Assembly: GCF_003002875.1 (NCBI RefSeq)
Contig: NZ_PVTH01000001.1
Span: 186,001 to 250,000 of the forward strand
Length of the DNA: 64,000 nucleotides
Direction: 5' to 3'
Origin: Arcticibacter pallidicorallinus
Lineage (GTDB): Bacteria > Bacteroidota > Bacteroidia > Sphingobacteriales > Sphingobacteriaceae
Both the position numbers and the translations under genes were made by a program. Shown here piece by piece: positions 23,698 to 36,482 of the stretch (position 1 is the first letter of the stretch; each line of letters begins with the position of its first letter). The notes beneath the pieces are model-generated. The model had not been told where the DNA came from. It saw nothing but the letters and a program-made list of their open reading frames with translations, and ran no database searches.

Positions 23698-26082
23698 ATG
23701 CAAATTACGAAATTTTTGCTTGTGGGCATGCTGTGTGCCTGCAGAATTGTTGCCTACGCGCAAATCAACCCCTCAGGAAGTATCAGTGGATACATCAAAG
23801 ACAGCAATGGGAAGCCTGTTATTGCTGCTACCATCAAATTACTGAACACATCAACCGGTACCATCACCAACGGTCAGGGTTACTATCGCATCGGACCCCT
23901 AAAGCCGGGTAATTATGTCCTGGAGGCCCACTCTGTAGGGTTGGGCAAAATAAGCCGGAAAATCCAGGTGAAGCCCGGTACGGATCTTATCTCTGACATA
24001 GAGCTGAGAGAAGTCAGTCAGCAAATGGAGACAGTTTCGGTGATCGGAAGATCAGAAGTTCGGGAGCTTAATCGTCAGGCTTACAACGTGGTAGCAGTCG
24101 ATGCCAGGAGACTGCATAACTCAACGCTTGACATCTCTCACGCACTTGATCGCGTATCAGGAGTAAGAGTAAGGGAAGCGGGGGGACTAGGTTCGCGTAT
24201 GGATTTCTCGCTAAACGGTTTTACCGGCAGACAGGTGAAATTCTTTATCGATGGGGTGCCTATGGATAACTTTGGTTCGTCTTTTCAGCTTAACAATATT
24301 CCTATCAATCTGGCGCAGCGCGTGGAAGTTTACAAAGGCGTGGTTCCCGTGTGGCTGGGCTCTGATGCGCTCGGTGGTGCAATCAACATTGTTACAGTGA
24401 ATGATACCAGAAGCTACGCCGACGCTTCGTATTCTTTGGGGTCATTCAATACTCACCGCAGCTCACTCAACGCTGGTTACACCACACCTTCTGGTTTTAA
24501 ACTAACTCTTAATGCATTTCAAAATTACTCAGATAATAACTACAAGGTCACAACTGATGTAGCAAGCTTTTCCGGTCAGTATTTTCAGCATCAAAAGGTC
24601 AGGAGATTTAATGATACCTACCATAACGAGACGCTGATAGCCAGTGCGGGCGTTGTTAATAAGCCTTTCGCTGATCAGCTGATGTTTGGTGTTACATTAG
24701 GTCAAAACTACTCGGAAGTTCAGACTGGTGCGAGAATGGTTAGCGTATTTGGCGACTGGCACCGTAAAGGTAGCATCATCATGCCCAGCGTAAAGTACTC
24801 TAAAGAAGATCTGTTGATAAAGGGTCTTGATTTAAGGATTACCGGGAACTACAATCTTGGAAAGGAGCAGAACATCGACACCGTGTACCGCAGATATAAC
24901 TGGTTTCAGGAGTATAAAGAATACCCCGGACAGGGTAGTGAACGTGAGCGTTCGATGTACAAATACAGTAATAACAATGGTCTTGGAACGGTTAATCTTA
25001 GCTATGCGGCGAGTGAGAAACATTTGTTGACATTGAATAACGTTTACAATACATTTAACAGGAAAGGTTCAGATGAGCTATATCCCGAAAGTGATAAATA
25101 CGAGCAGCCAAGAAAAAATGTAAAAAATATCCTGGGATTAGGCTATCAGTTCAAAACTTCTGAAAAGTGGAATACTTCATTTTTCGCCAAACATTTCTAC
25201 CAGCATAACAAGTATTCTCAGAGTTACAATCCTAGTGGAAGTTGGGGAGACCTGGCCTATTTGGTGCAGGAAAACAGCCTCAATAGAATCGGATTCGGCC
25301 TTGCGTCTACCTACTTTATTATGCCTAATCTGCAGGCAAAGGCGTCCTATGAAAAGAGCTATCGATTACCCGAAACAGATGAGCTATTTGGTGACCTGCT
25401 GAATTTGGAAGGAAACATAGATCTCGATCCTGAACACAGTCATAATTATAATTTCGGACTAAGCTACCAGGCCCAGATCGATAAGAGCCACAGACTCAAC
25501 TTTGAGGGCGGCGTGTTGTATCGCAACGCGAAAGATTTTATTCGCCCGAGCCTCAACAATAATCAGACGAAGCAGGTGATGGATAATCTTGCCGACGTAA
25601 CCAATCTGGGCTTCGAGGGAGAGCTGAGGTACTCGTTCAGGCAGCTTTTTACAGCTGGTATCAACATGACTTACCAAAATCTTCGGAATAATACAAAGTA
25701 TGAAGAGAACCAGACGATGGAAAGCCCTCTTTACCGCGACAGGATTCCCAATATGCCGTATCTCTTTGGTAACGCCGATGCTTCCGTGTTTTTTAACAAT
25801 GTAGGAAAGAAAGGGAATACGCTAACATTAGGCTATAACGTGCTTTACGTTCACGCTTATTACCTCTCATGGCCAAGTCAGGGTACATCCGACCAGAAAT
25901 ATGACATCCCAAGGCAGTGGATGCAAGACGTAAATGCTGTTTATTCCTTAGGAAAAGGCAAGTACAATATTGCACTTGAATGTAAAAACCTCCTGGACAA
26001 CAGAGTCTACGATAATTTTTCCCTGCAAAAGCCCGGGAGGGCGGTCTACGCTAAAGTAAGATACTTTATCAGCAATAACTAA
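23698..26082 (+). CDS. XusA-like TonB-dependent siderophore receptor
   Basis: 794 residues. Signal peptide (1-22), a CarboxypepD_reg-like domain (about 27-112; GSISGYIKDSNGKPVIAATI), plug (about 115-230; NGFTGRQVKFFIDGVPMDNF, SDALGGAINIV) and a barrel ending in KVRYFISNN. It is followed by a DUF4374 lipoprotein and a PepSY membrane protein, the gene set of the xenosiderophore system XusABC of Bacteroides. I infer ferric siderophore uptake. No FecA-type STN domain is present, so it is not linked to an ECF sigma factor. Confidence 0.88.
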   Translation: MQITKFLLVGMLCACRIVAYAQINPSGSISGYIKDSNGKPVIAATIKLLNTSTGTITNGQGYYRIGPLKPGNYVLEAHSVGLGKISRKIQVKPGTDLISDIELREVSQQMETVSVIGRSEVRELNRQAYNVVAVDARRLHNSTLDISHALDRVSGVRVREAGGLGSRMDFSLNGFTGRQVKFFIDGVPMDNFGSSFQLNNIPINLAQRVEVYKGVVPVWLGSDALGGAINIVTVNDTRSYADASYSLGSFNTHRSSLNAGYTTPSGFKLTLNAFQNYSDNNYKVTTDVASFSGQYFQHQKVRRFNDTYHNETLIASAGVVNKPFADQLMFGVTLGQNYSEVQTGARMVSVFGDWHRKGSIIMPSVKYSKEDLLIKGLDLRITGNYNLGKEQNIDTVYRRYNWFQEYKEYPGQGSERERSMYKYSNNNGLGTVNLSYAASEKHLLTLNNVYNTFNRKGSDELYPESDKYEQPRKNVKNILGLGYQFKTSEKWNTSFFAKHFYQHNKYSQSYNPSGSWGDLAYLVQENSLNRIGFGLASTYFIMPNLQAKASYEKSYRLPETDELFGDLLNLEGNIDLDPEHSHNYNFGLSYQAQIDKSHRLNFEGGVLYRNAKDFIRPSLNNNQTKQVMDNLADVTNLGFEGELRYSFRQLFTAGINMTYQNLRNNTKYEENQTMESPLYRDRIPNMPYLFGNADASVFFNNVGKKGNTLTLGYNVLYVHAYYLSWPSQGTSDQKYDIPRQWMQDVNAVYSLGKGKYNIALECKNLLDNRVYDNFSLQKPGRAVYAKVRYFISNN

Positions 26083-26125
26083 ATATCCGAATCACCAGGG
26101 TTCATCAACCTCAAAAATCAAAAAA

Positions 26126-27367
26126 ATGAAGACTTCATATCTACACCTATTGGTAGCATTCTTTGTGTTCAGCCTTTTCACCGCCTGTGATCCGGAGCTG
26201 GAATACCTTAATGTCGATGACACCGACACTGAGCTTACGGGCGTAACTAAGTACATTATCTCTGCTACCCCTATTGGTACCACAGGAATCGCAGATTACC
26301 TGCTCACCGCGAATAGCCTCAAAGAGGGTGTAATCACGACACAGGGAAACGGCCTCGAACAGGATGGTTCTTATCGTTACTACATAACACACAAGAACAG
26401 GTTCTTCAGTATGCTGTATGGCCAGGGTAATCCCGGTGCAGTTACAAGTTATCGCCTCGATTCTACCGGGACTTTAACTAAGCTCAGCAATTTTCAGAGT
26501 GAGACAGTACAAGTTTTTGCACCGGTGATGGATGATGTTTTAACTATCAAAGTGCCAAGATCCGGAAACGAATTTGCCTCGATGTTTCGCGTTGATGCGC
26601 GGAAATATCAGATCGTGGGAGAGAAACAAGTCAATATCGTTCAGCTTGCGGGAAACGGAGAGCGGGCACACTTTACCTGGGCAACGCAAGTCGGCGACAA
26701 GTTATTTCTGCCGTACATGAGCATAAAGGGAAAAGCTCCTGATGCATTTGGGACAGCATATCCGGACAGCTCCTGGGTCGCGGTCTTCTCTTATCCTGAG
26801 CTTGAACTTGAAAAGGTCATAAAAGATAACCGAACAAGCTATATCGGCGCCTATTTTAATAATGGTCTGGTTGAAACGGAGAATGGGGATGCCTATGCTT
26901 TTTCTCCTGCGGCAGCAACTAACAACAACGTCCCTACATCTACCAAACCCTCGGCTATAATCCGCATTCTGAAGGGTACAAACGAATTTGATCAGAGCTA
27001 CTTTTTCAACGTAGAGCAGGAGTCTGGTGGGCATCATATTGCTGCCCAGTCTTATCTGGGCAATGGCATATTCATTCTGCAGATGTATCCTAAGCCTAAA
27101 TCTCTGGAAGGTGTAGCCAGGAAGTTTGCCATAGCGGACGTGATCAACAAGAAATTTAAATGGGTAACGGGTCTTCCGGAGGATATTACCAAAACAACAA
27201 CCATTAATAACTACTCACCGGGCGACGGAAGAACGGGGTATATCGGTATCACGACCGCCAGTGAAGGAAGCTATGTTTACATCTTCGACGCAGAGATCGG
27301 TGCTGCGAAGCGGGGATTGAAGGTTGAAGGAGGAACAATTACCGCGATTAACGCTCTCAAATATTAG
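26126..27367 (+). CDS. DUF4374 lipoprotein, XusB-like siderophore binder
   Basis: 413 residues, lipobox FTAC (Cys21). The body is all-beta with repeats of the form YRYYITHKNRFFSMLYGQGNP and VGDKLFLPYMSIKG, matching DUF4374, a beta-propeller family. XusB of Bacteroides, a surface siderophore-binding lipoprotein, is of this kind as far as I recall. It lies 43 bases after the receptor and 5 bases before the PepSY gene, so it should capture the siderophore for the receptor. Confidence 0.8.
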   Translation: MKTSYLHLLVAFFVFSLFTACDPELEYLNVDDTDTELTGVTKYIISATPIGTTGIADYLLTANSLKEGVITTQGNGLEQDGSYRYYITHKNRFFSMLYGQGNPGAVTSYRLDSTGTLTKLSNFQSETVQVFAPVMDDVLTIKVPRSGNEFASMFRVDARKYQIVGEKQVNIVQLAGNGERAHFTWATQVGDKLFLPYMSIKGKAPDAFGTAYPDSSWVAVFSYPELELEKVIKDNRTSYIGAYFNNGLVETENGDAYAFSPAAATNNNVPTSTKPSAIIRILKGTNEFDQSYFFNVEQESGGHHIAAQSYLGNGIFILQMYPKPKSLEGVARKFAIADVINKKFKWVTGLPEDITKTTTINNYSPGDGRTGYIGITTASEGSYVYIFDAEIGAAKRGLKVEGGTITAINALKY

Positions 27368-27372
27368 CTACC

Positions 27373-28662
27373 ATGGCAACTTCCAGATTTAAAAAGGTAA
27401 ACAACTGGCTGCATCTCTGGCTGGGACTGATCTCAGGGATTATTGTATTTATCGTCTGCATAACCGGGTGTATCTGGGTATTCAACGAGGAAATTATGGC
27501 GCTGCTGGAGCCCGAAACCCGGATCGAAAAGCAAGATAAACCTGTTTTGAAACCTTCGCAACTTAGCAGCATCGCCCTCCGGCTTCACCCGGATAAAAGA
27601 GTCTCATATGCCATGTATCAGCAGGGGCGTACTATTAATGTCAATCTGAGGTCTGAAAAAGAACAAGGAAGACGGGGCGGGGGCACTACACTGAAGCTGA
27701 ACCCTTATACAGGGGAGGTGCTGAGTCAGCAGATCCATAAAAAAGGAGAGACGGATTTCTTTCGGTTCATCCTGAACGGTCACCGTTTTCTCTGGCTACC
27801 CTTTGAAATCGGAAGACCTATAGTAAACTACGGTACGTTAATCTTTGTCGTGCTGCTGATAACCGGGCTTATCTGGTGGTATCCAAAGAAGTGGAACAAA
27901 ACCGCAAAGGAAAAAAGCTTCAAAATTAAATGGGGAGCTTCTTTCAAGCGTGTGAATCTGGATCTGCATAATGTGTTGGGATTTTATTCGCTGCTTTTCC
28001 TTTTGGCTATCTCCTTAACGGGAATGGTCTATGGAATTAAGTGGTACAGTGAAGGATTATACTGGGTAACCTCCGGGGGACAAACGCTGGTTCCGTATGA
28101 GCGACTGCAATCTGACTCTTTACAAGCGAATAAACACTACACTCCTGAACAAGCAATGGACATTGCCTGGGATAGAGTCATACGCAAGCATCCGAAGGCT
28201 GGCGGTTTTTACTACAGTTTCGCTGATGCTGCAAGGGCTAAGGCGACCATCGACATCACCATCTATCCCAGCGCAGGGCAGTTTTACAACAATAAGGGTT
28301 ACACGTTTGACCAGCATACACTCAAGCAGCTGGAACGCAAAGACGTTTATGCTGCCGATTACCAGGAAGCTTCATTCGGCACCAAGCTGAGGAAAATGAA
28401 TTACGACATCCATGTAGGAAGCATCCTCGGGTTTCCTGGTAAGGTGCTCGCGTTTCTGGCTTCTCTTATAGGCGCTTCCCTCCCTGTTACCGGGTTTTTG
28501 GTCTGGTGGGGGCGGAAATACGGGAAAACGAAGAAGCCCGGCAAAAAAGTAGCTGATAAGCGAACGCCGGGTTCTTTCCGTGTTGCCGGTAACCGGGGGG
28601 CAACTAAGCCGCCCGTCCCGGTGCTGCAAACAGCATCTGGCATACCTGAAAATGACGAATAA
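27373..28662 (+). CDS. PepSY-domain inner membrane protein, XusC-like reductase
   Basis: 429 residues with four membrane helices typical of PepSY_TM proteins: about 12-38 (WLHLWLGLISGIIVFIVCIT), 150-170, 198-222 and 355-382. HLWLG and LDLHNVLGFYS carry His residues that may bind heme. Such proteins are thought to reduce ferric siderophores at the inner membrane and release iron. The C terminus is basic and low-complexity. Third gene of the Xus-like operon. Confidence 0.85.
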   Translation: MATSRFKKVNNWLHLWLGLISGIIVFIVCITGCIWVFNEEIMALLEPETRIEKQDKPVLKPSQLSSIALRLHPDKRVSYAMYQQGRTINVNLRSEKEQGRRGGGTTLKLNPYTGEVLSQQIHKKGETDFFRFILNGHRFLWLPFEIGRPIVNYGTLIFVVLLITGLIWWYPKKWNKTAKEKSFKIKWGASFKRVNLDLHNVLGFYSLLFLLAISLTGMVYGIKWYSEGLYWVTSGGQTLVPYERLQSDSLQANKHYTPEQAMDIAWDRVIRKHPKAGGFYYSFADAARAKATIDITIYPSAGQFYNNKGYTFDQHTLKQLERKDVYAADYQEASFGTKLRKMNYDIHVGSILGFPGKVLAFLASLIGASLPVTGFLVWWGRKYGKTKKPGKKVADKRTPGSFRVAGNRGATKPPVPVLQTASGIPENDE

Positions 28663-28684
28663 TCAAATTATAACATAAAGCAAA

Positions 28685-29407
28685 ATGAACAATCTCAAAT
28701 CATTATTATTACTGCTGATTTTCTTAAGTGTAGGTGCAGTAGAACTCCACGCTCATGCCCTTTGGATCGAAACAGCTAGTACGGCAAAGAAAGGACATGC
28801 ACAATCAGTAAAAGTTTTTTATGGTGAGTATGCCACCAAAGAATTGGAAGAAATTGGAAAGTGGTACTCTGATGTGAAAGATTTTACGCTGTGGCTCACA
28901 GTGCCTGGGAAAGAAAAAGTGAAGTTAAGTACAGTAGCGGGAACTAACTTTTACTCCGCCAGCTTTACGCCTGACGAAGATGGCATTTATCTGTTAACAG
29001 TCAGTCACGAGGCAAAAGATCTTGGCGGAACAACCAAGTATGAATTCTCGTCAGTCGCCGCAGTGGCGGTGGGTAAATCAAATGCTGTTGATCATGCGTC
29101 TATTCCAAATTCAATCAATGTGGCTGCAAATGAAGCAAAAAACTATAAAGTGAATTCGCCCGTGCAGCTTAAAGCTGTTCTTAACGGCCAGCCTGTAGCT
29201 AATAAACCGGTATCAATATTCTCTCCCGAAGGTTGGAGTAAAGAATTTACGACAGATGACAACGGCAGTATTTCGTTTACTCCGCAATGGCCTGGGCGAT
29301 ACGTTTTGGAGTTAAGTAACTTCGAAAAGGTGAACGGAGAGCATAACGGTCAGAGCTATACTGCCGCATGGCAGGGGGCAACTTCAAGTTTCGAGGTTGT
29401 TAAATAA
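28685..29407 (+). CDS. DUF4198-family periplasmic protein
   Basis: 240 residues with a signal peptide (cut near ELHAHA). The mature N terminus HALWIETA and the two Ig-like beta domains are those of DUF4198, a family often beside metal or siderophore uptake genes. The C-terminal part (GQPVANKPVSIFSPEGW to WPGRYVLELS) resembles a bacterial Ig domain. It lies 22 bases after the PepSY gene, so it belongs to the iron operon. Function unproven. Confidence 0.75.
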   Translation: MNNLKSLLLLLIFLSVGAVELHAHALWIETASTAKKGHAQSVKVFYGEYATKELEEIGKWYSDVKDFTLWLTVPGKEKVKLSTVAGTNFYSASFTPDEDGIYLLTVSHEAKDLGGTTKYEFSSVAAVAVGKSNAVDHASIPNSINVAANEAKNYKVNSPVQLKAVLNGQPVANKPVSIFSPEGWSKEFTTDDNGSISFTPQWPGRYVLELSNFEKVNGEHNGQSYTAAWQGATSSFEVVK

Positions 29408-30885: not shown

Positions 30886-32622
30886 TTACATTAATATCAG
30901 TCCCGCATTCCAGCCAATCCAAGCTCTTACCTTGTCAGAAAAGGATCGGCTGTATCGAGGTGCTATGTCTGTTTTATATCCCTCTCCGGCTATCCCAATA
31001 GCCTTGCTGTAGTAAACAGAGTAAGAAGGGCCGGCAAAAACCGTGATAAATTTCGTAGCCTTAAATTGCAGGTGTGTTTGAGCTTTATTCAGGTAATGGT
31101 TATTAACAGGCTTACCAAGATAGAGAAACTGTGACAATAGCTCTGCAGCTAAAGAGAGGCGATGATTAAAGATAAAGTCGTGACCCCAGCCTATCCCTGC
31201 GGAGTAGACCTTTTTGGAATCGGACACGTTCATCCCTCCGATCAGCATCGTGTATAGCTTTGCATTTCCCGTCTTGATGCTGATATTGGTATTCAACACC
31301 TCGTTGCTGGAGATACTCACCTTATGGTAACCTTTTCTTACCAGATTTAGCAGGCCGAAACCTACTCCTGAAGAGGTGTCGGCTACATTGACCAAGCCGA
31401 TTTGCGTGCCATGCATATTTTTGGAATAGTTAAGAATACCGGCAATCTGCGAACCTTTAAGGCTCCCCCCATTGATATTCGCCATGCCTGCAATCTGTGT
31501 TCCGCGAACTGACTTTGCAGCAAGGTTTACGATGCCTGCTACTTGTACTCCGTACAGCTTGTCTAAACTGGCGTTGATAATTCCGGCCGCCTGCACACCG
31601 TGAATAGACCCTCGAACGGTGTTGGCTAGTCCAGCCGCCTGTACCCCGTCGGTACTGTCTAAAACAAGGTTTGCCAGTCCTCCGGCCTGTACCCCATTCA
31701 CTGATCCGCCTACGACGTTCAGCATACCTGCAAGCTGCACTTTCTTTACGTCCTTTTTGGTGACATTAAATATTCCGCCAAGTTCGACACCGTCAACACC
31801 GGCAGTGTAACCACCAAAGAGATTCAGCGACCCTTTGTTCACAATCTGGGAACTCAGCATTCCATGAGAACTTAATCCCGGCATCAGGGATGCTTGAAAG
31901 GGACTGTTCGCAATAAAATCGGGAATATTCAAACTCTGTATCCGTTGACGCGAAGAGGTGAGGAAGCGCCCGAAACCGAAACGTTCCACCCGGTTTGAAG
32001 GTCCTGCGTTTGAATCATCATCCACATAACCTTGCGCACTAACCGTAATTGCTGACAGAAATTGCAGGCTGGTATCGCGAAAATTTTCTTTGCTCACTGT
32101 CAGAACTATTCCCTCTTGTGCCTTTTTGAATTTTAGCTTGAAAAAGCCCTTCTCGTCTGTAAGGGTTGATCTTAGTAACTTTTTCTCGTAGACGCTTGCC
32201 TCTTTTACAGTTTCGCCGCTTCGTTCATCGTAAACATATCCTTCAATTTCGTAAAGCTTCCTTTGCGTGTAGATGTTTTCAGGCACTACCGAGAATCGCC
32301 GGGATGTAGGTCGCAGAATGATGTAATTCCCGCTTTCTTTGAACTCCACGTCTCCTCGAAACAGCTGCTCGAGAACCTCCCTGATCGTTTTGTTTTGCGC
32401 TGAAAATGAGATAATGCTATCTTTTTGCAGAATCGCTCCCGTATAGGAGAAGTTGAAGCCCCCTTGTTTGCTGATCGCGTTAAGGACATTCTGGAGCGGC
32501 TGCCTGTTTATGTTCAATGAAATTTTCCGCGACAGATTGGAACGATAGACTGGAGAAGTGTGCTGTCCAAACACTGGTACAAGAAAGAAAGCAAAGAGCG
32601 TAAAAATGAGGTTTGCCTTCAT
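30886..32622 (-). CDS. STN-domain protein with GxQxAGxxN repeats and C-terminal barrel-like domain
   Basis: 578 residues. Signal peptide (1-20). An STN domain (about 32-105; ISLNINRQPLQNVLNAIS, REVLEQLFRG) is followed by a CarboxypepD_reg-like domain (about 124-195; GYVYDERSGETVKEASVYEK). Then nine or so repeats, mostly of 16 residues (about 278-420), of the form GVQAAGLANxVxxSxx. The C-terminal part (about 455-578) is beta-rich with TVFAGPSYSVYYS and resembles a small barrel. There is no TonB plug or large barrel. It is the third gene of an ECF sigma/FecR operon, 6 bases after fecR, the slot normally held by a TonB receptor. The role as surface signal receiver is inferred. Confidence 0.8.
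   Translation of the reverse strand: MKANLIFTLFAFFLVPVFGQHTSPVYRSNLSRKISLNINRQPLQNVLNAISKQGGFNFSYTGAILQKDSIISFSAQNKTIREVLEQLFRGDVEFKESGNYIILRPTSRRFSVVPENIYTQRKLYEIEGYVYDERSGETVKEASVYEKKLLRSTLTDEKGFFKLKFKKAQEGIVLTVSKENFRDTSLQFLSAITVSAQGYVDDDSNAGPSNRVERFGFGRFLTSSRQRIQSLNIPDFIANSPFQASLMPGLSSHGMLSSQIVNKGSLNLFGGYTAGVDGVELGGIFNVTKKDVKKVQLAGMLNVVGGSVNGVQAGGLANLVLDSTDGVQAAGLANTVRGSIHGVQAAGIINASLDKLYGVQVAGIVNLAAKSVRGTQIAGMANINGGSLKGSQIAGILNYSKNMHGTQIGLVNVADTSSGVGFGLLNLVRKGYHKVSISSNEVLNTNISIKTGNAKLYTMLIGGMNVSDSKKVYSAGIGWGHDFIFNHRLSLAAELLSQFLYLGKPVNNHYLNKAQTHLQFKATKFITVFAGPSYSVYYSKAIGIAGEGYKTDIAPRYSRSFSDKVRAWIGWNAGLILM
31363..31791 (-). repeat. 48-bp coding repeats (16-residue GxQxAGxxN units)
   Basis: Units start at residues 278, 294, 310, 326, 342, 358, 374, 390 and 405. 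Core consensus G-V/T-Q-x-A-G-x-x-N. The regular hydrophobic alternation suggests a beta-solenoid. The DNA is diverged between units, so the array is old. Confidence 0.85.
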
Positions 32623-32628
32623 TCTGAA

Positions 32629-33570
32629 TTATTTGAGAATGTAGGAATTACCTCGCCTGATCACCTCGCAGTTTATAGTCTCTCCCACTATCTGGAGTAT
32701 TCTGTCGAGTGATTCATTCTGGAAGCGCGTTGTGAGTGTGACGTTCCTCAATGCAGGGTTTTCTATCCTGATCTCTGCCTGATAGGCTTCATTAAGCACT
32801 TCTACAAGCCGCCAAAGTGGCGTATTGTCGGCTACAAACTCGTTGCTGCGATAGTAATTATAAAGCAGGTCTGTGTTTTTGAGCAAGGTCAGTTTCCCTT
32901 CTCTTGCAGTAACTTTCTCACCTTTATGCAATTCTACCACCTGCTCACCTTTGCTTACCTTTACAATGCCTGTTTCCACAATAACTTCTGTGAGCGATTC
33001 AGTGTGTTTAACGTTAAAGGAAGTTCCGACCACCTCTATGTTCAGCCCGTCTGTCTCTATAATAAACGGTCTTTGTTTATCAGGCGCAACATGGAAGAAT
33101 ACCTCTCCTCTTTCCAGCTTAACGTTTCTATCGCCACCATCAGCATCAAACGAGTAGGAGAGGACTGAGTTTTTGTTTAATATAACACTGGAGCCATCGG
33201 GCAGTGACTGATTAAGAGTCTGCTGATAGGCGGTAAGCGTCTTGTTTTTATTTCCCATCAGGTTAAACATCATCCATGCTCCGCATACCAGCACAAGGGC
33301 CGCCGCTATTTTCATCCATCCATAGCGTGCCCAAAGCTTTACAGGTTTCGTTTGAGGGATACTCACTGTCTTCGCCTTGAAGCGCTCCCAGGCTTCGTCT
33401 TCATTAATGGTGCTGGCCGTTGCCAGTTTCTTACTGGTATTCCATATCAGCTCCAGATTTGAAAACTGCTTCCGGTGGCTTTCGCTGGCTGCAAGCCATA
33501 GCTCTACTTTCCTGTCTTCATCCTGACGGGTTTCTCTTAAAAGATACTTAATTAAAAGTTCGTCGTCCAT
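32629..33570 (-). CDS. FecR-family anti-sigma factor
   Basis: 313 residues. Cytoplasmic N-terminal region (1-85), one membrane helix (about 87-105; IAAALVLVCGAWMMFNLM), a FecR domain (about 115-215; LPDGSSVILNKNSVLSY, VKLERGEVFFHV, VVGTSFNV) and a C-terminal DUF4974 domain (about 245-313) that normally contacts the STN domain of an outer membrane transducer. It should hold or activate the upstream ECF sigma factor in response to a surface signal. Starts 4 bases after the sigma gene. Confidence 0.93.
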   Translation of the reverse strand: MDDELLIKYLLRETRQDEDRKVELWLAASESHRKQFSNLELIWNTSKKLATASTINEDEAWERFKAKTVSIPQTKPVKLWARYGWMKIAAALVLVCGAWMMFNLMGNKNKTLTAYQQTLNQSLPDGSSVILNKNSVLSYSFDADGGDRNVKLERGEVFFHVAPDKQRPFIIETDGLNIEVVGTSFNVKHTESLTEVIVETGIVKVSKGEQVVELHKGEKVTAREGKLTLLKNTDLLYNYYRSNEFVADNTPLWRLVEVLNEAYQAEIRIENPALRNVTLTTRFQNESLDRILQIVGETINCEVIRRGNSYILK

Positions 33571-33574
33571 GTCC

Positions 33575-34153
33575 TTATAAATATTTGTCGACCAACCAAA
33601 GTATTACCAGCGGCAGAAAGTCTGCCAGCTTTACCCGCATTATTTTTAGGGCCTTACCCATCTGGTTTTCCACGGTTTTGACCGAGATCCCCAGATGGAT
33701 AGCTATTTCCTTATATTTTAACTCTTCAAAACGGCTCATCTGAAAAATGGTGCGGCACTGCTGAGGAAGCTCATTCAGAGCCTCCGCAATATGATGTTCA
33801 AGCTCTCCTAGTTCGAGCTTGTGGGTAGCGCTGTATGCTTTTCCTTCCATAGCATAGGCAGCATAAGTCTCGTATTTCGCCTTTATTTTATTATGCTTAA
33901 AGTAATTGAGGCAGTCGTTATGTACCATCTTGTATAGGTATGCCTTTACAGAGATCTGCACGCTCAACTGCTCCCGGCGCTCCCATAACCTCAGAAAAAC
34001 GTTCTGTACCATTTCTTCCGCCAGCGCTTCGTCGCGCAGCATGACGTTGGCGTAAGCGTGTAAGGCTTTAAAATGTTCCTTAAACAAGCGCTCAAACGCA
34101 TTTTCGTCATCGAACGGTGCCTGGGATACTGAAGCAGCAACTGTTGATTCCAC
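33575..34153 (-). CDS. ECF RNA polymerase sigma factor, Bacteroidota FecI-like type
   Basis: 192 residues. Sigma region 2 (about 20-90; AFERLFKEHFKALHAYA, AEEMVQNVFLRLWERRE, VHNDCLNYFKHNKIK) and region 4 (about 115-175; LNELPQQCRTIFQMSRFEE, YKEIAIHLGISVKTVENQMG). The C terminus (LADFLPLVILWLVDKYL) is hydrophobic. It should direct RNA polymerase to target promoters when released by FecR. First of the tight sigma-FecR-STN trio, 78 bases after the DUF2807 gene. Confidence 0.94.
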   Translation of the reverse strand: MESTVAASVSQAPFDDENAFERLFKEHFKALHAYANVMLRDEALAEEMVQNVFLRLWERREQLSVQISVKAYLYKMVHNDCLNYFKHNKIKAKYETYAAYAMEGKAYSATHKLELGELEHHIAEALNELPQQCRTIFQMSRFEELKYKEIAIHLGISVKTVENQMGKALKIMRVKLADFLPLVILWLVDKYL

Positions 34154-34231
34154 TTTGTAAGTTTCGTCCCAAACTTAGATATTTTTCGCAAAATATTTCA
34201 TTTCAGAACATGAAACGGAATCAAATGACGG

Positions 34232-34882
34232 TTAAAATTTCACAACCTTGCCGCTTCCGGTAACTTTGGAATCCAGCTGAGGGTTACCCCTGTAGAAAAC
34301 CTGTCCGCTGCCACTGATGCGGGATCTTAGATGCGCAGACACGCTAAGCCTTACATCGCCGCTACCTGAAATATCAATATCTGCGTTTTCCGCCTGCAGG
34401 TTCTCAAGTCCAGCTTTTCCGGACCCTGACAGATCGATGTCTGCGTTTTTAGCTTGCAGTTCATCGTGCAGAACGATATCTCCGGAACCACTGATGCGCA
34501 GGTTAAATTTGTCTTGTGCAGGGAATTCTCCGCGTATACTCATTTCTCCACTCCCGGTCAGGGCAAGAAATTCCAATTCAGGCATGGTAATGAAGACCTC
34601 TATGTCGTCGTCGCTAACGCTTGCGTTTCTATAGCCAAGCTCAAGCGTGTTTTCTCTCACTTTTGTTTCGAAGCTGCCTATGAGATTAGAAGAGCCTCTC
34701 AGCTCTACACGGAATTCCGTGCCCTGGTTGATGTATACCCGGTTTGATCCGCTGCTGGATACGCCATCAAATGTGCCTGGAGTTCGTAGTTCTGTAATCT
34801 TATTGCCATTGGCTTCTAATCGCTCTTTTGTGCATGAAGTAATAACAGCTGCAAATAAGCCTATAAATAATAAAGTTTTCAT
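34232..34882 (-). CDS. DUF2807 (head GIN domain) lipoprotein
   Basis: 216 residues, lipobox ITSC (Cys17). The body has GSGE, SGSGDI, SGSGKA, SGSGDV and SGSGQV turns at a spacing of about 18-21 residues, the beta-helix pattern of DUF2807. Such proteins are common surface or periplasmic proteins of Bacteroidota with unknown role. It follows the 34909 repeat protein by 26 bases, so they are probably co-transcribed. Confidence 0.88.
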   Translation of the reverse strand: MKTLLFIGLFAAVITSCTKERLEANGNKITELRTPGTFDGVSSSGSNRVYINQGTEFRVELRGSSNLIGSFETKVRENTLELGYRNASVSDDDIEVFITMPELEFLALTGSGEMSIRGEFPAQDKFNLRISGSGDIVLHDELQAKNADIDLSGSGKAGLENLQAENADIDISGSGDVRLSVSAHLRSRISGSGQVFYRGNPQLDSKVTGSGKVVKF

Positions 34883-34908
34883 AGATGTTTTTATGTGATT
34901 ATTGATTG

Positions 34909-36057
34909 TTAAAAAGTAAAATGTAGTCCGCCTGCGTAACCGATATATAAGCCATGAAAATAGTCTCTGTTAGAACGGCTCTCTCGCTTCCATAAATAGT
35001 CATTTACCAGGGTTTCGCCCCACAGCGTATTGGTGTGGACGAGATTAAGAGTAGGGCCGCCGAAAATTTCTATGGTTTTACCCAGCTTCAATGCAGGGAA
35101 TATTCTCAAACTCGACTTGAAATACTCACCCGTGTGAAAGTTGTCCAGATAGACTGTAGCAATTTCTGTGTTTAAGCGCAGTAAATTACTTAGAAAGAAA
35201 TGCGCGCCGAGTCCCGCTTCAAATGCATACATCTCATCATCGATATCCTTCCAATTGTAGCCCGCGCCGATAATTCCGTATAGCTTTTTACCTCCGGAAC
35301 GAAAGGATAGGAGGGAGGTCTGAGTTTCATCCGTACTTAACCCGATGCTCTTTTCTCCGTTTCTGATGATGTTGATGATACCAATCGGATGATCGCTGCT
35401 GTCGGCAACATTAATAAAAGCAGCAAGCTGGATGCCCTTAACTTTTCTGGCAACGTTCGCAAAGCCACTGATCTGAGAACCGGAAACATCTTCTCCAATA
35501 TTGGCGAAGCCAGAAATCTGTGAACCTCTGACGCCCTTCGCAACATTGGTAAACCCTGCAACCTGGGTTCCCTGTACCTGCATTGCGACGTTGGCGAAGC
35601 CGGCAAACTGCGCACCTTTTATCTCTTTTGCCAGGTTAAAAAAGCCGGCAAACTGTGCGCTTTCCCCGTTGCCAACAGCCACATTACCAAAGCCCGCAAA
35701 CTGCAGTCCCCTTGAATCTCCATAAGTATTTAGAAAGCCAGCGAAAAGTAAGCCGTTTGCCTTATTGCCGATATGATTGGAAAAGCCGGAAAAAGCTAAG
35801 CCATGTACGTTATGCTTGACGAAGTTTGACAGGCCCGCGAAAGCGAGTCCTTTCTCCTCAGCGGAAACACCAGCAATCAAGTGCAATGAAAAATGATTGG
35901 TATCGGCTGGTGCATCTGTTCCATTCGTGCTAAGCGGATAAACAATGCCAATGTGTACCTTATCGAATTTAGGTAACTGAGCTGCGCTTTCAGCTGCCTG
36001 AATAGATAACAACGCCGCAATCGCGGTTCTAAAAATGGGGGTATATTGTCTCGTCAT
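34909..36057 (-). CDS. surface repeat protein with 15-residue GxQxAGFxN repeats
   Basis: 382 residues from the ATG at 36057; a TTG eight codons upstream is less likely because the ATG gives a clean signal peptide (1-26, cut near ESAAQ). About ten repeats (about 70-217 in this numbering) of 15 to 16 residues, the last five exactly 15 apart (G148, G163, G178, G193, G208), with core G-x-Q-x-A-G-F-x-N. The C-terminal half (about 255-382) has KKLYGIIGAGYNWKD, FEAGLGAHFFL and EIFGGPTLNLVHTN, alike to the C terminus of the STN protein at 30886. No STN domain. Function unknown; probable outer membrane beta-solenoid/barrel protein. Confidence 0.8.
   Translation of the reverse strand: MTRQYTPIFRTAIAALLSIQAAESAAQLPKFDKVHIGIVYPLSTNGTDAPADTNHFSLHLIAGVSAEEKGLAFAGLSNFVKHNVHGLAFSGFSNHIGNKANGLLFAGFLNTYGDSRGLQFAGFGNVAVGNGESAQFAGFFNLAKEIKGAQFAGFANVAMQVQGTQVAGFTNVAKGVRGSQISGFANIGEDVSGSQISGFANVARKVKGIQLAAFINVADSSDHPIGIINIIRNGEKSIGLSTDETQTSLLSFRSGGKKLYGIIGAGYNWKDIDDEMYAFEAGLGAHFFLSNLLRLNTEIATVYLDNFHTGEYFKSSLRIFPALKLGKTIEIFGGPTLNLVHTNTLWGETLVNDYLWKRESRSNRDYFHGLYIGYAGGLHFTF
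35407..35850 (-). repeat. 45-bp coding repeats (15-residue GxQxAGFxN units)
   Basis: About ten tandem units in the 34909 gene. The five C-terminal units keep an exact 15-residue period; the N-terminal ones are 15-16 residues with GLAFAGLSN-type cores. Same motif as in the STN protein at 30886. Confidence 0.88.
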
Positions 36058-36104
36058 TCTTGTGATTTTAAAGTGTGACAACGAAAAGGATATTCACCCC
36101 TACG

Positions 36105-36139
36105 CAATACTAAAAAATATTTCTGCCACTATATTGCAA
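36105..36139 (-). promoter_or_regulatory. possible promoter of the repeat-protein operon
   Basis: Minus-strand TAGTATTG (36105-36112) is one base off TAnnTTTG; a TTG lies 24 bases upstream (36137-36139). Weak. Confidence 0.3.
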
Positions 36140-36199: not shown

Positions 36200-36482
36200 A
36201 TGAAAACAGAGGAATTATTTGACGCAATCATCATTGGAGGAAGCTACGCGGGACTGTCAGCTGCGATGGCCTTGGGTCGTTCTGTAAGAAAGGTATCGGT
36301 TATAGAAGCGGATTGCCGTGTAACAGGCAATCCGTGTAGACTTTATGCAGAAAACGGCTGTTCCGGGAGTGTACGCTTGTGGTGATAACTCATCTCCAAT
36401 GCGTTCTGTTGCAAGTGCCGTTAGCACCGGCGCTACCGCCGGCGCTATGGTAAATATGGAATCGGTAAACGAGGAGTTTTAG
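36200..36482 (+). pseudogene. broken thioredoxin-reductase-like FAD oxidoreductase
   Basis: The first 50 or so codons encode an FAD-binding start (DAIIIGGSYAGLSAAMALG, then KVSVIEAD). A jump to another frame near 36345 gives the true C-terminal end of the same family: TAVPGVYACGDNSSPMRS, then AVSTGATAGAMVN, with a stop at 36480-36482. About 200 central codons, including the NAD-binding domain, are missing. The remains overlap the end of the SDR gene by four bases. Confidence 0.88.

Follow-up and report, generated by a model that had tools for sequence, protein, structure and literature searches.

Many pairs of an extracytoplasmic function (ECF) sigma factor and a FecR protein are encoded in Bacteroidota genomes, and their signals are assumed to arrive via TonB receptors, as in the FecI-FecR-FecA and SusC-type systems. 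A different arrangement is represented by the PUMA3 system (VreI-VreR-VreA) of Pseudomonas aeruginosa, in which, according to its report (PMC2729926), a sigma factor and an anti-sigma factor are accompanied by VreA, a small, mostly soluble STN transducer without a TonB barrel and with a TolA/TonB-like C-terminal domain; the system regulates virulence-related genes such as tpsA, whereas a reporter for vreA showed no induction by the sigma factor. In this work, a 64,000-nucleotide stretch of the Arcticibacter pallidicorallinus genome (contig NZ_PVTH01000001.1, positions 186,001 to 250,000; the whole stretch is referred to as the window) was analyzed, in which five minus-strand genes encode, in the order of transcription, a repeat protein (REP), a DUF2807 lipoprotein, an ECF sigma factor, a FecR anti-sigma factor, and a protein composed of STN, CarboxypepD, and repeat parts (the STN-repeat protein).

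We consider, with a probability of roughly 0.6, that this is a self-regulated cell-surface signaling operon of the FecI-FecR type, in which the STN-repeat protein replaces the TonB-dependent transducer. As far as sequence can tell, this reading is backed by the sigma factor, a FecR with a membrane helix and an STN-like C-terminal domain, the signal-peptide-like start of the STN-repeat protein, the conserved gene order, the joint inheritance of the parts, and a strong promoter-like site before REP. The ECF sigma factor, the FecR with its FecR and STN-like domains, the STN-bearing third protein, and the gene order are shared with FecI-FecR-FecA and SusC-type loci, but the third protein has neither a plug/TonB barrel match nor a conserved TonB box (as judged with a crude regular expression), the FecRs form a separate clade, and the promoter-like element is absent from 21 canonical control loci. 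Of the features of cell-surface signaling, the sigma factor, the membrane anti-sigma factor, and a secreted STN domain in the adjacent gene are present, a TonB-dependent receptor is not, and control of the operon by its own sigma factor is predicted from the promoter-like site and its distribution. From PUMA3 (PMC2729926), the locus differs in its repeat/outer-membrane part (16-residue repeats and an outer-membrane-protein-like C terminus in place of the TolA/TonB-like domain), its distinct FecR clade, its occurrence across many families, and the promoter-like element. As VreA already exemplifies a barrel-less STN transducer, the concept has a partial precedent, and the statement of the sequence-only reading of this DNA that no system of this make-up had been described was too strong, even though the C-terminal part of VreA is different. 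What appears to be new is the promoter-like element and the repeat-type transducer with its own FecR clade, while cell-surface signaling as such and barrel-less STN transducers were already known.

The operon and the STN-repeat protein

The STN-repeat and fecR genes are separated by 6 bases and the fecR and sigma genes by 4, in agreement with the tight packing noticed earlier; the sigma/DUF2807 and DUF2807/REP gaps are 78 and 26 bases long (Table 1). FecR consists of an N-terminal part, a transmembrane helix at about residues 86-105 (read from the sequence), a FecR domain (113-204), and an STN-like FecR_C domain (245-311). It was also confirmed that the operon opens with genes for a second repeat protein of matching C terminus and a lipoprotein, as REP shows 34% identity with the STN-repeat protein across residues 298-575 of the latter. 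No Pfam model matched REP, and its last residue is Phe. The ATG at 36057 is a likelier REP start than the TTG at 36081, which would give a longer protein, because the promoter-like site described below occupies positions 36077-36102.

The domain searches agreed with the composition proposed for the third protein, i.e., STN, CarboxypepD, and repeats without a TonB plug. Of 16 aligned family members, 15 were matched by the STN Pfam model and all by PF13715 (E 0.01), and the Plug and TonB barrel (TonB_dep_Rec) models matched neither the window protein nor, at the same threshold, any of the 16; TonB_C and TolA models were likewise without matches among aligned family members. A weak match of the STN region in the window protein to the FecR_C model (E 0.0074, under its cut-off) is as expected if STN and FecR_C are both STN folds; the C-terminal end of PupR is described as an STN subdomain (PMC7186176). 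The repeats, which have the same unit as the LA_2272 surface repeat and REP-only proteins, reached 34.7 bits with the NF047436 model (cut-off 25). A TonB-box-like pattern is not conserved, being found in 29 of 91 STN-repeat proteins versus 23 of 28 TonB-dependent receptors (TBDTs). In a PDB sequence search (E <0.001), the CarboxypepD part alone gave matches, to two SusC homologues.

The start of the window STN-repeat protein is signal-peptide-like, and a signal-like N terminus was recognized, by a crude rule, in 84/94 STN-repeat proteins. A C-terminal Phe, Trp, or Tyr is present in 58/93 STN-repeat proteins, 45/68 REP proteins, and 22/28 TBDTs, compared with 11/206 sigma and FecR proteins; the window STN-repeat protein itself ends in Met. 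This aromatic C terminus, as in TBDTs and unlike in sigma/FecR proteins, suggests outer-membrane insertion, and the STN-repeat protein is probably a protein of the outer membrane. The number of repeats varies from 5 to 11, with both odd (26) and even (13) counts (39 proteins cleanly counted out of 62 measured, from a total of 90). One transmembrane strand per 16-residue repeat was considered unlikely, since odd and even counts both occur; a solenoid fits this variability better, and the repeats possibly form a beta-solenoid. AlphaFold, supplied with the window sequences alone (two rows per protein), gave a mean predicted local distance difference test (pLDDT) score of 33.4 for the STN-repeat protein and 43.9 for REP, and only the REP repeats reached blocks of 53-74. 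The Foldseek comparison of the REP model with PDB returned no matches at E ≤0.001, and its best hits, phage tailspike beta-helices (E 0.08), were not used as evidence. The "small barrel-like end" once ascribed to the STN-repeat protein is conjectural, as what is documented is the aromatic C-terminal residue of most relatives and the 16-residue repeats.

Table 1. Features of the operon in the window (positions counted from the first nucleotide of the window)
Feature	Position	Strand	Evidence
Predicted ECF promoter (39-mer scored; core TAGGGGTGAATATCCTTTTCGTTGTC at 36077-36102)	36069-36107	-	matrix score 37.9
REP, secreted repeat protein, 382 aa from ATG 36057	34909-36057	-	paralogue of the repeat and C-terminal part of the STN-repeat protein
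DUF2807 (head GIN) lipoprotein	34232-34882	-	PF10988, E 2.7e-35; Cys behind a hydrophobic N terminus
ECF sigma factor, Bacteroidetes type	33575-34153	-	TIGR02985, 172.6 bits (cut-off 126.4)
FecR anti-sigma factor	32629-33570	-	PF04773, E 1.5e-21; PF16344, E 1.5e-9
STN-CarboxypepD-repeat protein, 578 aa, proposed transducer	30886-32622	-	STN, CarbopepD_reg_2, and LA_2272 matches
STN domain, residues 56-105	32308-32457	-	PF07660, E 3.6e-10
CarbopepD_reg_2-like domain, residues 126-180	32083-32247	-	PF13715, E 5.1e-7, 30.1 bits, under the Pfam cut-off of 32.2
16-residue GxQxAGxxN repeats, about residues 272-415 (limits by eye)	31378-31809	-	NF047436; unit profile and counts
C-terminal region common to REP, possibly outer-membrane	30886-31377	-	alignment with REP

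Gene order and joint inheritance

A single-protein query matched 22 of 60 relatives at E 1e-10 (some matches being receptor STN domains or repeats only), and a 16-row profile matched 74 of 395 genomes of the phylum at E 1e-20, including receptor STN domains and STN-less repeat proteins. Within the order, the STN-repeat profile matched 156 of 300 genomes at E 1e-60, a few of which could be repeat-only. For the comparison, 115 stretches were fetched, picked by match and not by gene order (60 were hand-picked from a longer order-level list, and some genomes gave two); together with the window they contained 94 open frames with both STN and repeats (L051 is split into two frames and L053 is cut by a contig end). 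The sigma-fecR pair is located directly upstream of 84 of these genes and is convergent to 8; one gene has fecR alone (L071) and one has neither. The co-directional sigma-fecR-STN-repeat order (the triad) is hence conserved and no local accident, and at the sequence level the relatives revealed neither a hidden TonB plug or barrel nor a general lack of this order.

STN-less members behave differently, as no sigma or FecR gene was found within 5 kb at any of the 22 loci where a repeat protein occurs without an STN protein; one of them (L055) belongs to genome G011, in which the triad is present at another locus (L044), and the repeat gene of L055 carries the promoter-like site. The triad is also carried by two Persicobacter plasmids, and a Hymenobacter volaticus plasmid (L178, 3370-7119) has the order sigma-DUF2807-FecR-STN-REP, with the STN and repeat parts as separate adjacent genes, which points either to a naturally divided transducer or to a broken frame. 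At L138, L139, L140, and L146, a canonical sigma-fecR-STN receptor operon follows the sigma-fecR-STN-repeat operon, so that both designs stand side by side. A viral collection yielded no relative, and a scan of genome contigs gave a canonical SusC locus only, which served as a control.

Each of the five FecR proteins that the FecR_C model detected in this genome has an STN protein behind it, which is a TonB receptor with a sigma factor of its own in four cases and the STN-repeat protein in the fifth; for a sixth STN protein (C16, a 693-aa frame), a FecR_C neighbor was not found in these searches. In the FecR tree, 43 STN-repeat-partnered FecRs (a chosen subset of 90) and 21 STN-receptor-partnered ones were split by one change (SH-aLRT 97); the receptor part was recognized in 20 of the 21 controls, the fetched piece ending first at L165. 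The STN-repeat-partnered FecRs span family codes f1, f14, f15, f25, f28, and f30. A transmembrane-like helix was present in 99/102 FecRs (crude rule), and the parts of the operon are inherited together, with distance correlations of 0.53-0.87.

The promoter-like element

The element TAGGGGTAA-N12-TTGTC was found upstream of many REP, sigma, STN-less TonB-receptor, and DUF6134 genes in triad-bearing genomes. Its GGGT-N15-TGTC part is common to the upstream regions of REP at 23/28 loci (best shuffled pair 6) and of sigma at 30/93 (best shuffled pair 9). A position-weight matrix was built from 50 sites, all AGGGGT-N15-TGTC by construction (consensus gCrTAGGGGTAAA-N10-GTTGTCtTA), for which the 99% background level was 0.7 and the highest of 600 background pieces scored 10.3. 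The runner-up of the site preceding the window operon reached only 4.1 in the whole window, and the 21 canonical control loci never exceeded 7.6. Sites above the 99% level precede 40/49 REP, 14/25 STN-less TBDT, 34/103 sigma (including sigmas of neighboring canonical operons), and 1/29 DUF2807 genes, and none of the 101 FecR, 8 DUF4249, and 4 STN-bearing TBDT genes; for REP, sigma, and TBDT genes the counts are to some extent circular, as these genes supplied the training sites.

Two gene groups lay outside the training set. DUF6134 genes have a site in 11/13 cases, with scores (12.7-25.5) all above the background maximum, although the regions scanned exceeded the background pieces in length; the sigma gene comes directly after DUF6134 at several of these loci. 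Among the STN-repeat genes, a site precedes 6/94, with scores of 2.4-9.6 compared with -6.6 for the next-ranking gene. All six cases (L128-L132 and L134) belong to the 8 loci where this gene is convergent to fecR-sigma and therefore needs its own promoter. At L130, REP (score -5.1, sub-threshold), the STN-repeat gene, and a TBDT have the identical variant TCAGGGTAA...GTGTC. In total, 79/94 loci have a site (68 by the matrix scan and 11 more via DUF6134). No matrix site scoring >6 was found in the two Persicobacter stretches, and the Hymenobacter volaticus stretch has one of 16.2 before DUF2807.

The exact core, TAGGGGT-N14-TTGTC, has a single occurrence in this genome, which lies in front of REP and the operon; a regulon hardly larger than the operon itself is accordingly predicted here. 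By comparison with other ECF promoters, transcription would be expected to start a few bases downstream of TTGTC. In 24 triad-bearing genomes it gave 54 matches versus 11 for the reversed pattern, and G344 has none. The looser AGGGGT-N14-16-TTGTC has 4 matches in this genome, equal to the reversed control, the other three being two with different spacing and one inside a SusC gene. The window sigma gene lacks a promoter-like site of its own (score -12.3); therefore, REP-DUF2807-sigma-FecR-STN is, by sequence, likely a single regulatory unit, and the preferred reading is that this unit regulates itself. No comparable system or element was found in print in the literature searches made, two of which covered the best 12 of 52 and the best 12 of 144 papers.

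Proposed mechanism and alternative explanations

The STN-repeat protein would reside within or next to the outer membrane and expose its STN domain to the periplasm, where this domain may touch the C-terminal domain of FecR. The FoxA signaling domain is described as binding FoxR without a signal and shielding it from proteolysis (PMC11637429). By analogy, a change felt by the repeat/C-terminal part, standing in for plug and barrel, might alter the STN-FecR contact and let FecR be cut, and the freed sigma factor would begin transcription at TAGGGGT-N14-TTGTC, leading to synthesis of REP and the DUF2807 lipoprotein and to further supply of the three signaling proteins. The earlier interpretation stood as to the conserved order and the missing plug match, and the shared upstream site makes the five genes one likely regulatory unit; its placing of the repeat/barrel part at the surface as the sensor is conjectural. 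A tentative, rather doubtful extension would be a separate, old class of Bacteroidia surface signaling, working without TonB energy or import, in which an outer-membrane repeat protein keeps watch on the envelope, perhaps by sensing how much of its paralogue REP is present or how REP assembles. The sigma factor would respond by making REP together with surface lipoproteins and small outer-membrane proteins, joined in some genomes by a fatty-acid-hydroxylase-like enzyme encoded in the same run.

Several observations weigh against a self-regulated operon with a repeat-type transducer. The outer-membrane location is derived from the C-terminal residue only, the AlphaFold models being unusable. 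The FecR tree is a quick one with some long branches, and related genomes are not independent. In the mirror-tree analysis of 90 loci, the partial correlation of the FecR C-terminal domain with STN (0.16) is no larger than that with the repeat domain (0.16), so the distances show no co-evolution specific to FecR and STN. No site at all was found in 15/94 loci. Among the 8 STN-repeat genes in convergent position, two lack a site directly before them (at L144 it precedes the TBDT that opens the run of the STN-repeat gene, and at L137 the STN-repeat gene has none). Finally, the STN-repeat gene of L059 has no sigma or FecR gene nearby, and in one genome (L200) an exact site stands before a FecR gene.

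It is conceivable, but unlikely, that the STN-repeat protein is an adaptor, relaying to FecR a ligand sensed by a separate STN-less TonB receptor. Such a receptor lies nearby on the same strand in 18/94 loci, some with DUF4249 or DUF2807, and the site frequency before these genes (14/25) fits this view, as does the fact that the STN-bearing TBDTs found nearby (4/94) have their own sigma-fecR; the PUMA3 authors also considered that VreA might interact with unknown outer-membrane receptors (PMC2729926). However, 76/94 loci, the window included, have no same-strand STN-less receptor nearby. STN-less TBDTs are common in Bacteroidota, and those found here may simply be targets. A periplasmic STN-repeat protein seems quite improbable: it would resemble VreA, which is mostly soluble according to the same source, and no barrel could be modeled here, but aromatic C termini are common in the STN-repeat proteins, as in REP proteins and TBDTs and unlike in sigma and FecR proteins.

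We regard it as more improbable still that the STN-repeat protein is merely an envelope product of the sigma factor, with FecR sensing something else and the STN domain being a leftover. REP, an STN-less paralogue, is a predicted target, and in 6/8 convergent loci so is the STN-repeat gene itself; canonical receptors, however, are likewise both target and transducer, the STN model is retained in 15/16 aligned members, fecR is beside or near the gene in 93/94 loci, and every FecR_C protein of this genome has an STN neighbor. Almost no credence can be given to a degenerate TonB receptor or a local rearrangement; the gene does sit where a receptor gene would, but none of the 16 members has a Plug match, and long open frames occur in many genomes, with one FecR clade across six family codes.

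If the STN-repeat protein is indeed the transducer, Bacteroidota probably have a testable second design of surface signaling, with a repeat-rich protein in place of a nutrient-import receptor. Such a widespread branch, with another transducer and a defined element, allows asking whether FecR signaling needs TonB, what STN must be joined to for signaling, and which envelope state is sensed, while the promoter-like element predicts targets.

Predicted targets in relatives

Of the 54 exact matches in the 24 genomes, 30 were examined. They precede genes for REP (13), sigma (4), STN-less TBDTs (2, with L193 away from the triad), a 206-217 aa protein (3), DUF6134 (1, L201), the FecR mentioned above (1), and short unknown proteins (2, L188 and L192); for the remaining four, no suitable start lies 15-200 bases away, and L191, which is among these, is a REP promoter with a nearer called start. 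Judged by sequence, the identifiable targets are mostly secreted or envelope proteins. That sites stand upstream of genes for STN-less TonB receptors, DUF6134 proteins, and small proteins of presumed outer-membrane location suggests a role in tuning the envelope and not in the import of a single iron carrier.

A search of 23 triad-bearing genomes, most of them selected because REP is absent from the vicinity of the triad, gave REP matches at E 1e-8 within STN-repeat genes only in 17, and the idea that REP is needed everywhere was dropped. The 206-217 aa proteins form a family of about 210 residues (L185, L186, and L204, near position 1501), of outer-membrane-like sequence and presumed outer-membrane location, behind exact sites in f15 and f25; two of the three members were searched and had no Pfam match.

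At 11-237 bases before sigma, a fatty-acid-hydroxylase-like gene occurs in 14 loci and a DUF4833 domain in 16, the two being fused in 11 (frames of 499-542 aa). The fusion lies behind REP or DUF2807 at L095, L096, L099-L101, L104-L106, and L109-L111, and the DUF4833 part only is found at L102, L103, L108, and L113. The position of this protein, whose Pfam assignment was checked for L095 only, suggests a lipid-modifying member of the regulon.

Two further observations concern the surroundings of the operon in the window. A cluster on the other strand (23698-29407) comprises genes for a TonB receptor, a lipoprotein, a PepSY-like membrane protein, and a DUF4198-like protein (names given by eye); it lies outside the operon and is perhaps metal related. 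Between REP and an SDR gene, at 36200-36460 (plus-strand reading), both ends of an FAD/NAD-dependent oxidoreductase of the thioredoxin-reductase type were recognized by eye, with the middle gone, which is probably a gene remnant.

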